The position numbers and the translations under genes are program-made. From Alphaproteobacteria bacterium (GTDB lineage Bacteria > Pseudomonadota > Alphaproteobacteria > Micavibrionales > Micavibrionaceae): a DNA stretch of 64,000 nucleotides. Of this stretch, positions 2,270 through 12,903 are shown piece after piece. The stretch spans positions 248,001-312,000 of the forward strand of contig JAUIIA010000003.1 of the NCBI GenBank assembly GCA_030432025.1. Direction: 5' to 3'. The notes below the pieces were generated by a model. That model was not told the DNA's origin and searched no databases. It saw nothing but the letters and a program-made list of their open reading frames with translations. Position 1 is the first letter of the stretch. Every line of letters begins with the position of its first letter.

Positions 2270-3025
2270 TTACCGGACGAGCAAGACATGGTAGAAATGG
2301 TTGTTTCCGTCCTGACTACATTGCACACATGCTTGCGGTGCGGGGTAGGGAACAGTCGGTGAATAGGCGGTATCCTGTTCGAACGTGCTCGGCTCCATCG
2401 TATTCGGTGAGGTGTTAAAGGCCCCGACGAAACGTCCCAGATCCCCCATAGCAACACAAGAGCCGGCACCATCACCGGCACCGTTGCCGGATGCGAGGCC
2501 TGTTCCTGTATCTTGTGGGCTGAGGGTTTGGTTATTCAGCGCATTCACGCGGTCGCAAAATTCTTGCGAAACATTCGGCAACACGGCGACTAACTCTGCG
2601 CGCCCGGTTCCCATACCGGGCACATGCGTGCCGCCGAAAAATTCCCATGGGCTACCGTCATTGACGCCGTCTGGCGGATCACGGTAAAGCGCCGCGCCGC
2701 CGTCCTTAGCGAAAATCTGGTCACGCGTATCAGTGTCGGCGGTCAGGTCACCATATTCGGTTGGTGCATCGGGATGTGCAAAGCGCAAGGCACTCTCACT
2801 CTGTCCGCTCTCCATAATATAATTCACGGCGCGCTCCAGTTCCGATGCGTAGCGCTGTGCTTCGGAAACACGGATGATCACGGTTTCCTTGTCGATATTA
2901 TTGCCGTCTGAACGTCCCGTAAATTGAATAGCGGCCGTTAGAAGGCCGATCAAAAAGATCGCAATCAGGATAATGAACAACACATTTCCGGATTGTTGTG
3001 AATGAAGGGGGGCTGGATTGTCCAT
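2270..3025 (-). CDS. Pseudopilin-like secreted protein, paralogue A
   Basis: This 251-residue protein begins with a short polar leader, then 'SGNVLFIILIAIFLIGLLTAA', a single hydrophobic helix like a type IV pilin/pseudopilin N-terminus but without the usual Glu5. The periplasmic part has a helix (about 35-70), a Gly/Ser/Pro-rich middle, Cys residues, and ends in 'HFYHVLLVR'. The gene at 8568-9353 has the same leader-helix motif and ends in 'VFYQVLLAR', so the two are diverged paralogues. The start at 3025 is 8 bp after the stop of the carboxypeptidase gene, so they are probably translated from one mRNA. No secretion ATPase, platform protein or prepilin peptidase lies in the window. Pilin-like is an inference from the N-terminus. 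Confidence 0.6.
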   Translation of the reverse strand: MDNPAPLHSQQSGNVLFIILIAIFLIGLLTAAIQFTGRSDGNNIDKETVIIRVSEAQRYASELERAVNYIMESGQSESALRFAHPDAPTEYGDLTADTDTRDQIFAKDGGAALYRDPPDGVNDGSPWEFFGGTHVPGMGTGRAELVAVLPNVSQEFCDRVNALNNQTLSPQDTGTGLASGNGAGDGAGSCVAMGDLGRFVGAFNTSPNTMEPSTFEQDTAYSPTVPYPAPQACVQCSQDGNNHFYHVLLVR

Positions 3026-3032
3026 GGCGAGC

Positions 3033-4388
3033 CTAGTTTTGTGGCGCGACGGGCAGGCAATCACGGATGAAGTTGCATGCATCCAAGGCTTCATCTTTGG
3101 TAAAGCCTGTCAAGCGACCGCGATATAGCCAGCCGTCTGTGGTTTTCAGCGGGGCGATTATCGGTTGCGCTTTGGAATAGGGCGATGGCAACTTACTTAA
3201 AACGTCTCTGATCGCTTTGTCTGAAGATGCTCTGCTTTTAAAGGCACCGATCTGAACCGACCATGGCGCGTTGCGCTTGATGGAAACGGGTTCGTATCTG
3301 GCCGAGATCAGCTTTGGCTGAACGCCCGCCGGTGTCGGGTCGTTGGTATGTGCGGCGATGGCGAGCAAGCCGGCTTCAATTCGTTTCGAGCTTGACGGGT
3401 CAAGGTCACCCTGTCCGATCAGCCTTTCAAAACCGGCTTTGAGGGCAGGATTATACTGTGCCAGTGTCTGCGCATATGCGGGCTTGCGCTGTGGCAATGG
3501 CGGAACAGGCTTGGCAATACGGATATTCTTAATCTTGGCAAAGCCTTCATCCAGAATATCTTTCATATGCGCGTTACGGGACTTTGAACTGCGTCCACCG
3601 AAGACAACACCGATGATGCGTTTTTCACCGCGTACGGCCGATGCGATCAGATTAAAGCCTGACGCGTTTATATATCCGGTTTTCATGCCGTCCATACCGG
3701 CATATGTATCCATCAGACGGTTATGGTTGCGGTATGTCTTTCCGGCATAGGTGAAATTCTTGCGCGAGAAATAGCGGTAGTAATTCGGGTAAACATTAAT
3801 AACGTAACGCCCCATCTTCGCCATATCGCGGGCAGTTGTGACCTGATTCGGGTCATGCAGCCCGGAAGCATTTTTAAAAGTCGTACGGCTCATACCGATT
3901 GCACGGGCTTTGGCAGTCATGCGCTGGGCAAAATTCCGTTCCGACCCTGCGTGATGTTCGGCTAAGGCAACGGCGACATCGTTCGCAGATTTGGTGACCA
4001 GAGCATAGATCGCATCTTGTACACGAATGCTGGAACCGGGTTTCAGGCCTAATTTACTGGGGACCATGCTCGCCGCGTGATTGGATATACGAATGCGGTC
4101 TTTAAGGTCTAGTTTGCCGCTTTCCAATGCTTCAAATGTCAGCAAAAGCGTCATGACTTTGGTTAAAGAGGCAGGGTGCAGGCGCTTGTTAGCGTAACGC
4201 TGCCTGAGAATCAGGCCCGTATCGGCATCCATAACGATCGAGGCATATTTTGGATTTTCCTTGGCCTGTGCGGGCTTTGGCACAGAGGCACCCCAGGAAA
4301 AGACAATCATCACGCATACACACAAAACCGACTTAATAACAGCTTGAAAAAAGGGCATTAATCTCTGTTTGTTTGTGTGTTTTATCAT
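3033..4388 (-). CDS. D-alanyl-D-alanine carboxypeptidase (S11, PBP5 type) with SPOR domain
   Basis: The 451-residue protein removes the terminal D-Ala from peptidoglycan stem peptides in the periplasm. The signal peptide is at about 11-42. The three penicillin-binding motifs are present: SLTK (Ser74, Lys77), SAN (134-136) and KTG (236-238). The C-terminal 80 residues ('WSVQIGAFKSRASSDKAI...GRLTGF') form a SPOR domain, which in known proteins binds denuded septal glycan and places the enzyme at the division site. A TTG three codons upstream is possible, but ATG 4388 has a GAG 5 nt before it. The pseudopilin-like gene follows after 7 bp. Length is normal for alphaproteobacterial dacA-SPOR proteins. 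Confidence 0.92.
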   Translation of the reverse strand: MIKHTNKQRLMPFFQAVIKSVLCVCVMIVFSWGASVPKPAQAKENPKYASIVMDADTGLILRQRYANKRLHPASLTKVMTLLLTFEALESGKLDLKDRIRISNHAASMVPSKLGLKPGSSIRVQDAIYALVTKSANDVAVALAEHHAGSERNFAQRMTAKARAIGMSRTTFKNASGLHDPNQVTTARDMAKMGRYVINVYPNYYRYFSRKNFTYAGKTYRNHNRLMDTYAGMDGMKTGYINASGFNLIASAVRGEKRIIGVVFGGRSSKSRNAHMKDILDEGFAKIKNIRIAKPVPPLPQRKPAYAQTLAQYNPALKAGFERLIGQGDLDPSSSKRIEAGLLAIAAHTNDPTPAGVQPKLISARYEPVSIKRNAPWSVQIGAFKSRASSDKAIRDVLSKLPSPYSKAQPIIAPLKTTDGWLYRGRLTGFTKDEALDACNFIRDCLPVAPQN

Positions 4389-5747: not shown

Positions 5748-6161
5748 ATGACAAAGACACGCAATGAGTTTGAACGCACGGATGTGCCGCGCTTGGATGA
5801 TCCCCCTGAATATGACGATATGGGCGACGGCGCGGATAACGATGCTGGTGGTGACCAGCAAGCGGACGAAGATACAGGCTTGATGCTGAAGACACGGCCG
5901 AAAACGAAAAAGCCGGCCATGTATAAAGTCCTGCTCCTGAACGACGATTACACACCGATGGAATTCGTGGTCCATGTGCTCGAACGTTTCTTTTCCAAAA
6001 ACCGTCAGGAAGCGACCGACATCATGTTACATGTCCACCGTCGCGGCGTCGGTATCTGCGGGGTCTTCACCTACGAAATCGCCGAAACCAAGGTCGCCCA
6101 AGTCATGGATTTCGCTCGCGCCAACGAACAACCGCTCCAATGCACGATGGAGAAGGAATAG
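5748..6161 (+). CDS. clpS: ATP-dependent Clp protease adaptor ClpS
   Basis: This 137-residue protein delivers N-degron substrates (those with bulky N-terminal residues) to ClpAP. The core (about residues 55-135) shows family features: '[24 protein letters not shown]' with the Asn-Asp pair that binds the N-terminal amine, '[24 protein letters not shown]', and an acidic end. Residues 1-50 form an acidic, probably disordered extension; flexible N-termini of ClpS are threaded into ClpA. It stands 70 bp before clpA on the same strand, the usual pairing. Aat, which makes the N-degrons, is encoded 6 kb downstream. Confidence 0.95.
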
Positions 6162-6231: not shown

Positions 6232-8565
6232 ATGCTTTCACGGAATCTCGAACAAACCCTTCATAAAGCCCTTGCCGTCGCGGGGCAGTACCACCACGAA
6301 TACGCTACGCTGGAACATTTGCTCCATGCTCTGACAGATGATCAGGACGCGATGGCGGTATTACGCTCATGCGGTATTTCACTGCCCGATTTGCGCGACC
6401 AGTTGGCGCAATATATCGAGAATGAGCTGACCTACCTGATCAATACTGAAGCGGAAGAATCCAAACCGACCACGGCCTTTCAACGTGTGCTGCAGCGCGC
6501 GGCCATTCACGTGCAGTCCAGCGGACGTGAAGAAGTGACGGGTGCGAATGTGCTGGTTGCGCTGTTCTCCGAACGCGAAAGCCATGCGGTTTTCTTCCTT
6601 CAGGAACAAGACATGACTCGCTTCGATGCGGTGAATTACATTTCCCACGGCATTGCCAAAGTACCGAGTCAGAGCGATACGGGTAAAACCCCGCGCGGCA
6701 CGGACGAAGCCGCCGTGAATGAGATTAAGACGGGCGATGAAGCGCTCGATTCCTACTGCATCAACCTTAATCAAAAAGCGTTGGATGGTAAGATCGATCC
6801 GTTGATTGGCCGTGACAAGGAAATCGACCGCACAATTCAGGTGCTGTGCCGCCGTTCCAAAAATAATCCGATGTATGTCGGTGACCCCGGCGTCGGTAAA
6901 ACTGCAATTGCCGAGGGCCTTGCCAAGCGCATCGTCGAAAAAGAAGTCCCTGAAGTTTTGCATGACGCAACAATTTTCGCGCTGGATATGGGCGCGTTGC
7001 TCGCCGGTACACGTTACCGTGGTGACTTCGAAGAACGTCTGAAAATGGTCCTAAAGGAGCTGGAAGAAATTGACGGCGCTGTACTGTTTATTGACGAAAT
7101 CCACACCATCATCGGCGCGGGCGCAACATCAGGCGGCGCAATGGATGCCTCTAACCTCCTGAAACCTGCCCTGTCGAACGGATCACTGAAATGTATCGGC
7201 TCCACGACCTATAAGGAATTCCGCAACCACTTCGAGAAAGACCGCGCGCTTGTCCGCCGCTTCCAGAAGATCGATGTTGAAGAGCCCAGTATTGAAGATG
7301 CCATCGCAATTCTTATGGGTCTCAAACCCTATTACGAAAAGCACCACACGGTTGAATATACTGAAGAGGCGATCAAGGCCGCTGTCGAGCTGTCTTCTAA
7401 ATATATCGGCGACCGCAAACTCCCCGATAAAGCGATCGACATTATCGACGAAGTCGGCGCCGCGCAGATGCTGGTCCCTGCCGATCAGCGCAAAACCATA
7501 ATCGAGCGTGATGATATCGAAGGAGTAGTTGCCGCCATCGCCCGTATTCCTGCGGCGACGATGAGCAAGGATGACCGCGAATCTCTGCAGAATCTTGAGC
7601 GTGACCTGAAAACTATGGTTTACGATCAGGATAAAGCGATCGATATCCTGGTTGATTCCATCAAAATGGCGCGTGCAGGCTTGCGCGAAGATGAAAAGCC
7701 GATTGGTTCTTACCTCTTTAGCGGTCCGACAGGTGTCGGTAAAACCGAAGTCGCAAGACAATTGGCCAAGACACTGGGTATCGAACTAACCCGTTTTGAC
7801 ATGTCCGAATATATGGAGCGTCATTCCGTCTCCCGCCTGATCGGGACACCGCCGGGCTATGTCGGGTTCGAACAGGGCGGCTTGCTGACAGATAAAATCG
7901 ACCAGCACCCGCATTGTGTATTGCTTCTGGATGAGATTGAAAAAGCCCACCCCGATCTGTTCAACATCCTGTTGCAGGTCATGGATTACGGCAAGCTGAC
8001 CGACAATAACGGTAAGACCGTCGATTTCCGCAATGTCATTCTGATCATGACCACAAACGCAGGCGCGTCCGATCTGGCCAAAACGCCGATCGGTTTCGGT
8101 CGTGAAGTCGGAGACGGTCAGGATTCGTATGATGACAACGAAGCCATCACCAAAACATTCAGCCCCGAATTCAGAAACCGCCTCGATGCGATTGTACCGT
8201 TCCAGAATCTCTCCCATAAAACGGTTGAGAAAGTCGTCGAAAAATTCGTTGCGCAGCTCGAAGGGCAACTGGCGGACAAGAATATCGAGATCGTGCTGTC
8301 GAAGGCGGCGCGTAAATATCTGGCTGAGAAGGGCTATGACCCCGCCATGGGTGCGCGCCCGTTAAGTCGTATCATTCAGGAAAAGGTCAAACGTCCGCTG
8401 GCCGAGGAAATCCTCTTCGGTGATCTGGAAGGCGGCGGTACGGTCAAAGTCGACCTGAAAGATGACGAGATGACGTTCGATATCAAGAAGGGCAATAAAA
8501 AGCCGAAGCCAAAAAGCACAAAAGATAGTGATAGCGACGCGGCCGAAGAAGAGCCCGTTAAATAA
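6232..8565 (+). CDS. clpA: ATP-dependent Clp protease ATP-binding subunit ClpA
   Basis: A 777-residue double-AAA+ unfoldase that feeds proteins to ClpP. Residues 1-145 are the Clp N-domain that binds ClpS. D1 has Walker A 'GDPGVGKTA' (about 217-225) and Walker B 'VLFIDEIHT'. D2 has Walker A 'GPTGVGKTE' (about 497-505), Walker B '[13 protein letters not shown]' and the Clp C-terminal domain. 'TPIGFGRE' near residue 620 carries the IGF/IGL loop that docks into ClpP, so it should work with ClpP and not as a ClpB-type disaggregase. The charged tail after about 755 ('[14 protein letters not shown]') is longer than in E. coli. No clpP is in the window. Confidence 0.96.
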
Positions 8566-8567
8566 CT

Positions 8568-9353
8568 CTATCTCGCTAACAAAACCTGATAAAACACCCG
8601 CGTGCCCGAAGGCACATTATTTGTAGCATCGTCTGTCGTAAAACAGCCGTTCGGTTTTCCTTTCAGGCTCTCCGAACTGTCAGTTCCGCCATTGTTGTAG
8701 ATTTGTTTGGGCAAAACATATGTGCCCGTGAACTTCGGGTCACCCAAATTCCAGGGTGCAATATCATCTGTGGGAATATCGTCGCCTGGTGTAATTGTTT
8801 GCGTTTTTTCTGCAAGAGCTCTGCATACAGTTTCATTCACATACAAAACCATTAGCGTTAGTTCTGCTGAATTTGAAACATCGTTGCAACTTGATGGTGA
8901 ACTCAGGTTATCCGTGCCGATATTGTAAACACAGCTACCGCTCGTAAAGAACATCTCGCCGTAATATAAATTCCCGCTGTTTGAAGGCTCTAGCCATTCT
9001 TCTGTGGGCTGTATGTATGATAAACCGCCGCCGTCGGGATGAAAAACTTTACATTCATCTCTTGCTACCGGGCTGTGCTCATAGCCACTGACAGTGGAGT
9101 TTTCAAAGCTGATATCTTCATTTTCACATTGGTTCGAAATACGAAGATTTTGAACGGTCTGCCGGATATCCCGCGCATAGGCCAGAATCTCATCTGCCAG
9201 AATACTGGCTTTCTGCTCAGTGATCGCTTCCGCGTTTCCACTGCGCATCATATTAGATACGGCGAAGCTGAGCGCACCGAAAAGCGCGATGGCCACGAGA
9301 ATGATGAACAGGATGTTTCCGGATTCTGGCTGGACTTTATCTTGGTATTTCAT
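8568..9353 (-). CDS. Pseudopilin-like secreted protein, paralogue B
   Basis: This 261-residue protein starts with a short polar leader, then 'SGNILFIILVAIALFGALSFA', the same N-terminal helix pattern as the protein at 2270-3025. A long helix follows ('SILADEILAYARDIRQTVQNL'), then a Cys-containing β-rich region, ending with 'VFYQVLLAR'. I chose ATG 9353 because it gives the same leader length as the paralogue, although AAGGA sits unusually close to it; an in-frame ATG at 9395 is the alternative. The stop lies 2 bp from the clpA stop, convergent. It looks like an exported pilin-fold subunit, but no partner genes are nearby. It diverges from the gene at 9424. Confidence 0.6.
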   Translation of the reverse strand: MKYQDKVQPESGNILFIILVAIALFGALSFAVSNMMRSGNAEAITEQKASILADEILAYARDIRQTVQNLRISNQCENEDISFENSTVSGYEHSPVARDECKVFHPDGGGLSYIQPTEEWLEPSNSGNLYYGEMFFTSGSCVYNIGTDNLSSPSSCNDVSNSAELTLMVLYVNETVCRALAEKTQTITPGDDIPTDDIAPWNLGDPKFTGTYVLPKQIYNNGGTDSSESLKGKPNGCFTTDDATNNVPSGTRVFYQVLLAR

Positions 9354-9423
9354 ATCCTTGAATATATCACCCTTGGTTTTAATTTTCTGCCTCATTCTGG
9401 CTAAAATATGCTTTAATATTCAT

Positions 9424-10275
9424 ATGAGCAATCAAGGCTTTATAAATATTCTTGTCGCCGAAGACAACGAAGTCTCCCGCAATATGATGATGGGCATACT
9501 GCGCGCTCAGGGCTTTAACACGCACGGCGCGGAGAATGGTGACAGCGCGATTAAGGTCACGGAAGAGACCGATATTGATATGGCGCTGGTCGATGTGAAC
9601 ATGTCGCCCACCGGCGGATTCGAGTTCGTGAAACATACGCTGAGCAAGGGTTTAAAGATTCCCGTCGTGATTATTACAGGCGATGATTCAGCGGATTTGT
9701 TGATGGAAGCAAGTTCGCTCGGCATTGCCAAGGTCATGCAAAAGCCGGTTGCCCCCGACCGTTTGATCGAGACGGTTCACCGTATCCTGAAGCGTAAAGG
9801 TTTGAACCCGTCACCGTTGGCGGTGCAGGCCCATAACACGCGCTATACGCCCGAAGAATTGATGGATCAGACGATCGAGCTGGCCAGTGAAAATGCCCGC
9901 ACCGAAAGGGGCGGACCGTTCGCCGCGATTGTCGCTTCAGGCGAAGGACAGGTTCTGGGGACAGGTAAAAGCGGTAAAGCAGCACGCTTTGATCCCACCG
10001 CACATGCGGAGGTAATCGCCATTCGGCAGGCGGTCGAGAAATTGGGCAAGGACGATTTATCGGATTGTATTCTGTATTGTTCCAGCCAGCCGACCCGTAT
10101 CGGGAAGGCCTTGATCGAAAGTGTGGCTATTCCTGAAGTATATTACGGTCTTACGCATGAAGACACGGGCGGAATTTCCGAGCACAAGCAAGTCAAGGAA
10201 GCGGTGTATACGCAGCTTTGCCATGATCAGGCGCTGGAAATGTACAGGACGGCCAAGGCGGATAAGGCCGAATAG
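9424..10275 (+). CDS. Receiver domain fused to a degenerate cytidine/guanine-deaminase-like domain
   Basis: The 283-residue protein joins two domains. Residues 6-125 are a CheY-like receiver with the full phospho-acceptor set: Glu13-Asp14, Asp57, Thr85 and Lys107. Residues 140-275 follow the CMP/dCMP/guanine deaminase fold: 'ELMDQTIELASEN', 'GGPFAAIVAS', the His194-Ala-Glu196 motif, then 'LYCSSQPTRIGKALI' where active enzymes have 'LYxSCEPCPMCxGAI'. Both zinc cysteines of PCxxC are replaced (Thr224, Gly227), so zinc-dependent deamination looks unlikely. The later block 'VYYGLTHEDTGGI' is kept, so the fold seems intact. I infer a phosphorylation-controlled binding or allosteric role. I chose ATG 9424 because the upstream extension lies in the divergent promoter region. 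No histidine kinase is adjacent. Confidence 0.8.
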   Translation: MSNQGFINILVAEDNEVSRNMMMGILRAQGFNTHGAENGDSAIKVTEETDIDMALVDVNMSPTGGFEFVKHTLSKGLKIPVVIITGDDSADLLMEASSLGIAKVMQKPVAPDRLIETVHRILKRKGLNPSPLAVQAHNTRYTPEELMDQTIELASENARTERGGPFAAIVASGEGQVLGTGKSGKAARFDPTAHAEVIAIRQAVEKLGKDDLSDCILYCSSQPTRIGKALIESVAIPEVYYGLTHEDTGGISEHKQVKEAVYTQLCHDQALEMYRTAKADKAE

Positions 10276-10293: not shown

Positions 10294-10755
10294 CTAGGCC
10301 AATTCAAAAATCGCATCGATTTCGACAGCAACACCCAGCGGCAGAGACGGCGCACCAACGGCAAAACGTGCATGTTTGCCTTGTGTGCCCATAATTTCCA
10401 CCATCAGATCCGATGCACCGTTCACGACTTTCGGGTGATCCGTGAAATCGGGCGTGCAATTTACAAAAGCGCCGAGCTTTACCAGTTGCTTGATACGGCT
10501 CCAGTCGCCGACGACAGCGGCGTTGGCTTGCGTCAGAATGTTCAGCGCGCAGGCACGGGCGGCATTCATACCGTCTTCGATGGTCAAGTCCTCACCCAGA
10601 CGACCTGTATGCATCTTTTCGCCGTTCAGGAATGGAATCTGACCCGCCACAAAAAGCTGGTTGCCGCTGACCACGTATGGGACGTAATTTGCTGCCGGTG
10701 CGGCTGCCTGCGGTAATTCGTAGCCTAATTCTTGCAATTTTTCGAGAAGTTCCAT
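10294..10755 (-). CDS. RidA/YjgF/Rid family protein
   Basis: A 153-residue protein of the Rid superfamily, trimeric enzymes that hydrolyse reactive enamines/imines released by PLP enzymes or bind small molecules. Visible are the fold blocks 'YVPYVVSGNQLFVAGQIPFLNG', 'MNAARACALNIL', 'IKQLVKLGAFVN', and the conserved end 'ARFAVGAPSLPLGVAVEIDAIFE'. The Arg of the RidA active site ('R(S/T)xVxVxxLP') has the related form 'ARFAVGAPSLP', as in the YjgH/Rid2-like 'RSAVGVxxLP' group, so I keep the family name and not ridA itself. It is cytoplasmic, with normal length. It is convergent with the fusion gene before it, at a 19-bp gap. Confidence 0.9.
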   Translation of the reverse strand: MELLEKLQELGYELPQAAAPAANYVPYVVSGNQLFVAGQIPFLNGEKMHTGRLGEDLTIEDGMNAARACALNILTQANAAVVGDWSRIKQLVKLGAFVNCTPDFTDHPKVVNGASDLMVEIMGTQGKHARFAVGAPSLPLGVAVEIDAIFELA

Positions 10756-12225: not shown

Positions 12226-12903
12226 TTAATTCAGTTCTTTGCGCGCTTCGAAATATTCTGCAATCAAAGCCGCTTCCGACATCCCCTCTAATTTAAAATC
12301 CGCATTCAGCTTTGTCGCAACGCGTAAGCGTTCAATATATGCGCCGTGAGAGACTTCATAGACACCAAACTGCTTGAGGTGCTCATTGACGAATTGCGTA
12401 TCCAACAATGTGTATCCGCCCTTCCACAGACGGGCACATAGATGCACCAACGCAACCTTGCTGGCATTGCTTTCACGACTGAACATACTCTCGCCGAAAA
12501 ACGCGCTACCGACGGATACGCCATACAACCCGCCAACAAGTTTGCCTTTCGTATTTCGGCATTCCACACTGTGTGCGTGGCCGCGTTCATGCAATGTGCA
12601 ATAGGCTTTGATGATCGGTTCGTTAATCCAAGTCTCGGGCCTGTCTTCTCTGAAAGCTGCACATTCCCGCATCACACCTTCAAAATCCGTATCAAAAGAA
12701 ATAGTAAACGTATCGTTTCGTTTTGTGTTTTTACGCACCAGCTTCTTCAAGGATGTGGGAACATGTAGATCGAGAATAGGAAGTTGTCCGCGCTCGTCAG
12801 GACAGATCCAATGCACATACGGGCTGTCCCCATTATAGGCCATGGGGAACAAGCCTTGCTTGTAGGCTTCGATCAATAATTCAGGCGTCAAGACGAGCTG
12901 CAT
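12226..12903 (-). CDS. aat: Leucyl/phenylalanyl-tRNA--protein transferase
   Basis: This 225-residue enzyme adds Leu or Phe from aminoacyl-tRNA to proteins with N-terminal Lys/Arg, creating N-degrons read by ClpS. Family blocks are 'LIEAYKQGLFPMAY', 'DERGQLPI', 'TWINEPIIKAYCTLHERGHAHSVE', 'LVGGLYGVSVGSAFFGESMFS' and 'LLDTQFVNEHLKQFG'. It is cytoplasmic, with normal length. clpS-clpA lie 6 kb away on the other strand. It is the last gene before the DUF2155 gene (convergent, 5-bp gap). A TATAAT element ends only 6 nt before the ATG, suggesting a leaderless transcript. Confidence 0.96.
   Translation of the reverse strand: MQLVLTPELLIEAYKQGLFPMAYNGDSPYVHWICPDERGQLPILDLHVPTSLKKLVRKNTKRNDTFTISFDTDFEGVMRECAAFREDRPETWINEPIIKAYCTLHERGHAHSVECRNTKGKLVGGLYGVSVGSAFFGESMFSRESNASKVALVHLCARLWKGGYTLLDTQFVNEHLKQFGVYEVSHGAYIERLRVATKLNADFKLEGMSEAALIAEYFEARKELN

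Follow-up and report, generated by a model that had tools for sequence, protein, structure and literature searches.

Response regulators whose output domain is a former enzyme are a known kind of protein. In RssB, a receiver is joined to a PP2C fold that lacks active-site residues, and phosphorylation of Asp58 favours substrate binding (PMC7226468). CpdR of Caulobacter consists of a receiver only, and its own phosphorylation governs its control of ClpXP (PMC11519897).

The protein described here is encoded in a 64,000-nucleotide stretch of alphaproteobacterial DNA (the window), and its output domain, a dead guanine deaminase, is new. It resembles RssB, the ClpXP adaptor of E. coli and Pseudomonas, in its N-terminal receiver, its C-terminal dead enzyme fold and, as we propose, its Clp ATPase partner. 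It differs in that the output is a deaminase fold instead of PP2C and in that the linked genes are clpS-clpA, not clpX. CpdR is a further precedent for a receiver that controls a Clp protease in an alphaproteobacterium, although CpdR lacks an output domain and the window protein has a second domain. The likeness to RssB, a receiver followed by a catalytically dead output fold, is an analogy of architecture only: the protein scores 62.1 bits against the NCBIfam RssB equivalog (cut-off 329) and 51 bits against that for CpdR (cut-off 180), and its C-terminal domain is a deaminase fold, not an RssB-type PP2C-like domain. By these curated cut-offs its receiver is no nearer to RssB or CpdR than a generic receiver, which counts against the role in ClpAP proteolysis that we favour below.

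ClpA has a known adaptor in ClpS, and we know of no ClpA adaptor that is regulated by phosphorylation. The deaminase fold has a non-catalytic role in ADAT3/Tad3, which belongs to a different branch of the superfamily and is, to our knowledge, not fused to a receiver. The nearest relative of the C-terminal half is guanine deaminase (GuaD/GDA; B. subtilis, 1wkq/1tiy), which, judged by orthologues in the sister family f6, would also be its ancestor; the window protein differs in having a receiver fused in front and in lacking the zinc Cys pair, a Trp, the GFDD segment and the terminal Tyr. An earlier note on this DNA, made from the sequence alone, knew of no described system with a receiver and a pseudo-deaminase so paired, and a full-text search of the literature searched found none. 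Two papers name both clpA and guanine deaminase, and a link between the two is not a topic of their titles or abstracts.

A receiver fused to a deaminase fold without its zinc site

The gene and its main features are as follows; conservation counts here and below come from 42 aligned copies in the family of the window genome, which is that of Micavibrio aeruginosavorus.

9424..10275, + strand: gene for the fusion of receiver and pseudo-guanine-deaminase (283 aa; full-length homologues in the family)
9448..9777, + strand: receiver domain, residues 9-118 (PF00072)
9592..9594, + strand: codon of Asp57, the predicted phospho-acceptor (residue check and family alignment)
9850..10149, + strand: deaminase-fold domain, residues 143-242 (PF00383; Foldseek)
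10003..10011, + strand: HAE motif, residues 194-196, the former zinc His and catalytic Glu, kept (H 41/42, E 42/42)
10090..10104, + strand: P-T-R-I-G, residues 223-227, in place of PCxxC (family alignment)

Homology begins at about the ATG at 9424, and the open frame extends farther upstream, with a GTG at 9220. Residues 9-118 match the Pfam Response_reg profile (E 3.7e-20, 72.6 bits, cut-off 30.2), and the acidic pair Glu13-Asp14, the acceptor Asp57, Thr85 and Lys107 together make up a complete phospho-receiver, with the Asp acceptor, acidic pair, Thr/Ser and Lys expected of PF00072. The earlier note had listed Asp57, Thr85 and Lys107, to which Asp14 can be added. In the family, D14 is kept in 36 of the 42 copies, D57 in 38, and T85 and K107 in 40 each. 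The closest paralogue of this receiver in the window genome is a single-domain receiver on contig 19 (L187, about 64048-64401).

Residues 143-242 match dCMP_cyt_deam_1 (E 6e-15, 55.4 bits, cut-off 25). An AlphaFold model built with 49 homologues has a mean pLDDT of 92 and a pTM of 0.61; each domain is modelled with confidence, which does not extend to their mutual orientation. When the model was searched with Foldseek, B. subtilis guanine deaminase (1tiy/1wkq) ranked first and receivers next; both alignment and Foldseek make this enzyme the closest relative of the C-terminal half, and the PF00383 score places that half in the deaminase fold. The Pfam, PDB and Foldseek scores rule out a chance match. 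The protein is not a TadA-type tRNA adenosine deaminase by the NCBIfam equivalog (40.9 bits, cut-off 150), and a TadA-like deaminase whose motifs are intact is encoded separately in the window genome.

Aligned to the B. subtilis enzyme, CEPCPMC becomes S-Q-P-T-R-I-G: the two zinc Cys are T224 and G227, as the earlier note had read them, and the third Cys of active relatives (CEPC) is S221. The His-Cys-Cys ligand set of an active guanine deaminase (HAE...PCxxC) is therefore incomplete, and the catalytic Glu of HAE remains (E196, 42/42). The Cys are present in 43/43 aligned active relatives. The replacement is fixed in the family (P 42/42); of the two substitutes, whose invariance the earlier note had made a test of its idea, T224 is invariant (42/42) and G227 falls just short (39/42). 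Compared with the 43 active relatives, positions 221-235 have changed as a block (C221S, C224T, C227G, A230L, A234V, R235G), and N157, R188, C215, C219, H245, Y262 and Q264 are newly conserved.

Could the protein nonetheless deaminate, through a different metal site or with no metal? We consider this very improbable. His194 and Glu196 are conserved, as is much of the fold, but both Cys positions, the Trp, GFDD and the terminal Tyr have changed together, and a second, unrelated loss described below removed H, E and both Cys from a fusion whose frame is still kept. The earlier note had allowed that other residues might supply a zinc site; among the 42 copies no Cys is invariant (C215 39/42, C219 36/42), so a replacement site with Cys ligands is unlikely. 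We infer that deamination has been lost.

If the domain is not an enzyme, its pocket might still serve as a sensor, and the earlier note suggested one for nucleobases or nucleotides. In such a scheme the pocket would bind a purine, a nucleotide or another small molecule, and receiver and ligand would jointly gate the output via a partner. GGP, Asn183 (86%), D190-P191, His194 and Glu196 are kept, and R188, newly conserved (95%) just before HAE, could meet a phosphate. However, the Trp that follows the zinc helix in 100% of active relatives is Ser in 83% of the family, the GFDD segment (FDD in 100% of the active set) is absent, the C-terminal Trp/Tyr are gone, N183 is Ser in the window species itself, and retention of H194 and E196 could be structural. 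Because the Trp, GFDD and terminal Tyr have gone as well, guanine binding is doubtful; the pocket does not support the sensor idea, and we regard a ligand sensor as unlikely.

Conservation and origin of the altered site

The fusion is matched in 43 of the 104 genomes of the window's family (E <= 1e-30; one match is a fragment), and an orthologue is present in the cultivated predator M. aeruginosavorus. In a tree, the 42 pseudo-domains group into a single clade (100/100), whose stem is 1.49 changes per column long; this length keeps the tree from placing the clade within the guanine deaminases. Close pairs give dN/dS values of 0.007-0.074 in the dead domain and 0.007-0.102 in the receiver, which place the dead half, like the receiver, under purifying selection. 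The single clade, the conserved residues and the low dN/dS mark the protein as a maintained pseudoenzyme, not a relic. A sequencing error or local decay is ruled out by this selection and by invariance across about 20 genera.

That the protein is a decaying relic without function is barely credible, since the selection data already contradict it. The fusion is missing from about 60 of the 104 family genomes, and G053, a very near relative of the window genome (ClpA 97% identical), has lost it by clean deletion; but residues are invariant over about 20 genera, frames are intact in nearly all copies and dN/dS is low. Two family genomes carry an intact stand-alone guanine deaminase, possibly acquired (L181 in G101; L182 in G034).

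When was the zinc site lost? The earlier note held that homologues with the cysteines would point to a lineage-specific decay or a sequencing error. Such homologues exist in f6, which gives that objection half its force, but they date the loss and do not indicate recent decay. In nine f6 genomes a fusion of the same architecture lies in the same slot, directly 3′ of clpS-clpA, with CEPCPMC and the terminal Tyr intact. As these orthologues are intact, the loss appears derived and old, and that it happened once, before the family's fusion clade diversified, is well supported. The two families are mirror images: f6 combines an active enzyme with a weakened receiver, which keeps Asp57 and Lys107 but has lost Asp14 and mostly Thr85, whereas the window's family combines a dead enzyme with a complete receiver. 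A profile of f6 receivers scores most family receivers above most other receivers of the window genome, which makes a single origin of the fusion likely. The core of the earlier note's proposal, a pseudo-deaminase under the control of a receiver, is thus upheld: the loss is old and happened once, the substitutions are fixed, the domain is under purifying selection and its fold is predicted with confidence.

Other contents of the slot after clpA suggest what came before and after. Four f6 genomes have a stand-alone guanine deaminase there (L151-L154), and in three further families of Alphaproteobacteria a guanine deaminase adjoins or lies near clpA, in some with RidA nearby; an ancestral clpA-linked guanine deaminase with a derived zinc-site loss is likely. 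Stand-alone guanine deaminases beside or close to clpA, in f6 and, in other families, at L118, L122, L125 and L127, reflect an old linkage. A receiver alone occupies the slot in G141 of family f7 and in five genomes of the window's family (G004, G036, G016, G067 and G059), and in G053 the slot holds nothing; tblastn found no remnants of a deaminase domain behind the receiver-only genes at the slot. One order would thus hold guanine deaminase alone after clpA, receiver with active deaminase, receiver with dead deaminase and receiver alone, a series of stages from metabolic enzyme to signalling domain in which active and dead forms occur at the same locus. Such a natural series is rare and bears on the timing and the causes of the step from an enzyme to the pseudoenzyme that takes its place.

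A second zinc-site loss occurs in family f2. There the fusion occupies a different locus, with AIM24 and an SNase-like gene after it, and keeps the zinc Cys in four genomes. In G104 (L185:3758-4558, - strand), HAE has become KAV and PCxxC has become PEPMS, with GFDD and the terminal Tyr still in place; this fusion adjoins a receiver gene, AIM24 and the SNase-like gene, and its domain is otherwise enzyme-like with its frame kept. Judging by the sequences, this loss is independent of that in the window's family. Samples of 385 genomes of the class and 398 of the phylum held no fusion outside the order, and the strong matches there were stand-alone deaminases only.

Neighbouring genes and a divergent pilin-like gene

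The fusion lies among the following genes of the window.

5748..6161, + strand: clpS (PF02617, E 9e-37)
6232..8565, + strand: clpA (translation; homologues across the order)
8568..9395, - strand: divergent gene for a pilin-like single-pass membrane protein, starting 28 bp from the ATG of the fusion
10294..10755, - strand: RidA-family gene, convergent neighbour (PF14588, E 4.7e-32)
12226..12903, - strand: aat, leucyl/phenylalanyl-tRNA-protein transferase (PF03588, E 3.3e-63; conserved gene order)

The usual order in the family is clpS-clpA-(pilin-like, minus)-fusion(+)-ridA(-)-NDUFA12-mlaD-DUF2155-aat(-)-accC-accB. In most family loci the pilin-like gene stands between clpA and the fusion, so that the two are not co-transcribed there. 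Its product has no Pfam match; its model shows a long N-terminal helix and then beta strands, and Foldseek returned nothing significant, the best match being a type IV pilin (E 1.7). A paralogue is encoded elsewhere in the window (2270-3094, - strand).

It is possible that the fusion regulates this envelope protein, for instance when a pilus-like structure is assembled or turned over, and that the two genes form a unit. They adjoin in 26 of 40 family loci, are inverted together relative to their flanks at L055, L056 and L058, and stay together at loci without clpA next to them (L060, L065, L072, L076 and L080); in G053 (L131), both are cleanly missing between clpA and ridA, with clpS-clpA kept. 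Nevertheless, in at least eight family loci no pilin-like gene adjoins the fusion (L057, L061, L062, L082, L088-L091), the pilin-like gene occurs at the slot without the fusion at L136, L141 and L169, and other genes flank the fusions of f6 and f2. We consider this explanation improbable, more so than a ligand sensor, though both are serious alternatives to the reading that follows.

A candidate regulator of ClpAP

The reading that we prefer is of a non-enzymatic response regulator whose pseudoenzyme output acts on ClpAP, to which we would give a probability of roughly 0.4. Its usual position beside clpA points to a probable signal-controlled protease helper, and the clpS-clpA context together with extra clpP genes favours regulated proteolysis over nucleobase sensing. 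Also counted for it are the fixed change of the zinc site, selection on the protein, the related forms beside clpA in f6, f7 and other families, and the precedents of RssB and CpdR. The sequences themselves establish the fusion, the complete phospho-site, the loss and fixation at the zinc site, the purifying selection and the linkage to clp genes.

How might such a regulator have arisen and worked? An active guanine deaminase beside clpA would have been joined to a receiver within the order, and, after a single loss of the zinc site in a common ancestor of the family's fusions, it would have been fixed as a non-catalytic binding domain. Phosphorylation of Asp57 in the cell could then alter the packing of the receiver on the pseudo-deaminase domain, or the dimerisation of that domain, so as to expose or hide a protein-binding surface. 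Through this surface the protein may contact ClpA and serve ClpA(S)P as a regulator or as an adaptor for substrates, which it would deliver in the manner of RssB. The Clp step, for which the evidence is gene linkage alone (clpS-clpA and clpP), is tentative. If it holds, the locus may represent a new class, a response-regulator adaptor for ClpAP made from a dead guanine deaminase and evolved through clpA-linked stages, a proposal that we make with slightly more reserve; the locus is a testable candidate for a phospho-regulated ClpA adaptor.

Several observations count against a ClpAP regulator. The link to clpA may stem from a gene order that was inherited, as the clpA...NDUFA12-mlaD-DUF2155-aat block is present without the fusion in family f5. 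The pilin-like gene intervenes. Moreover, clpA is nearly universal (homologues in 136 of the 142 genomes of the order), yet about 60 of the 104 family genomes do without the fusion, and G053 has lost it while keeping clpS-clpA.

An extra ClpP paralogue (PF00574, E 7e-48 to 1e-77) lies divergent from the fusion in four copies (G102, G027, G038 and G039; loci L084, L085, L086 and L087), which come from genomes of the M. aeruginosavorus type and from two further genera. A search of 14 genomes turned up eight extra full-length ClpP genes, six of them at the clpA/fusion locus. Asp14 or Asp57 is missing from the receivers of the four fusions that adjoin an extra ClpP (4/4), vs 3/38 of the others; as the four come from related lineages, this loss amounts to one or few events.

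The extra ClpP genes at the clpA locus are L084:8934-9788, L085:7145-7909, L086:8947-9948, L087:8997-9941, L135:2344-2955 and L140:8588-9301. A second, diverged ClpA paralogue stands in tandem behind clpA at L085, L086, L087, L135, L138 and L140. The order is clpA-clpA2-pilin-clpP-receiver in G016, and clpA-clpA2-pilin-clpP, with no receiver, in G041.
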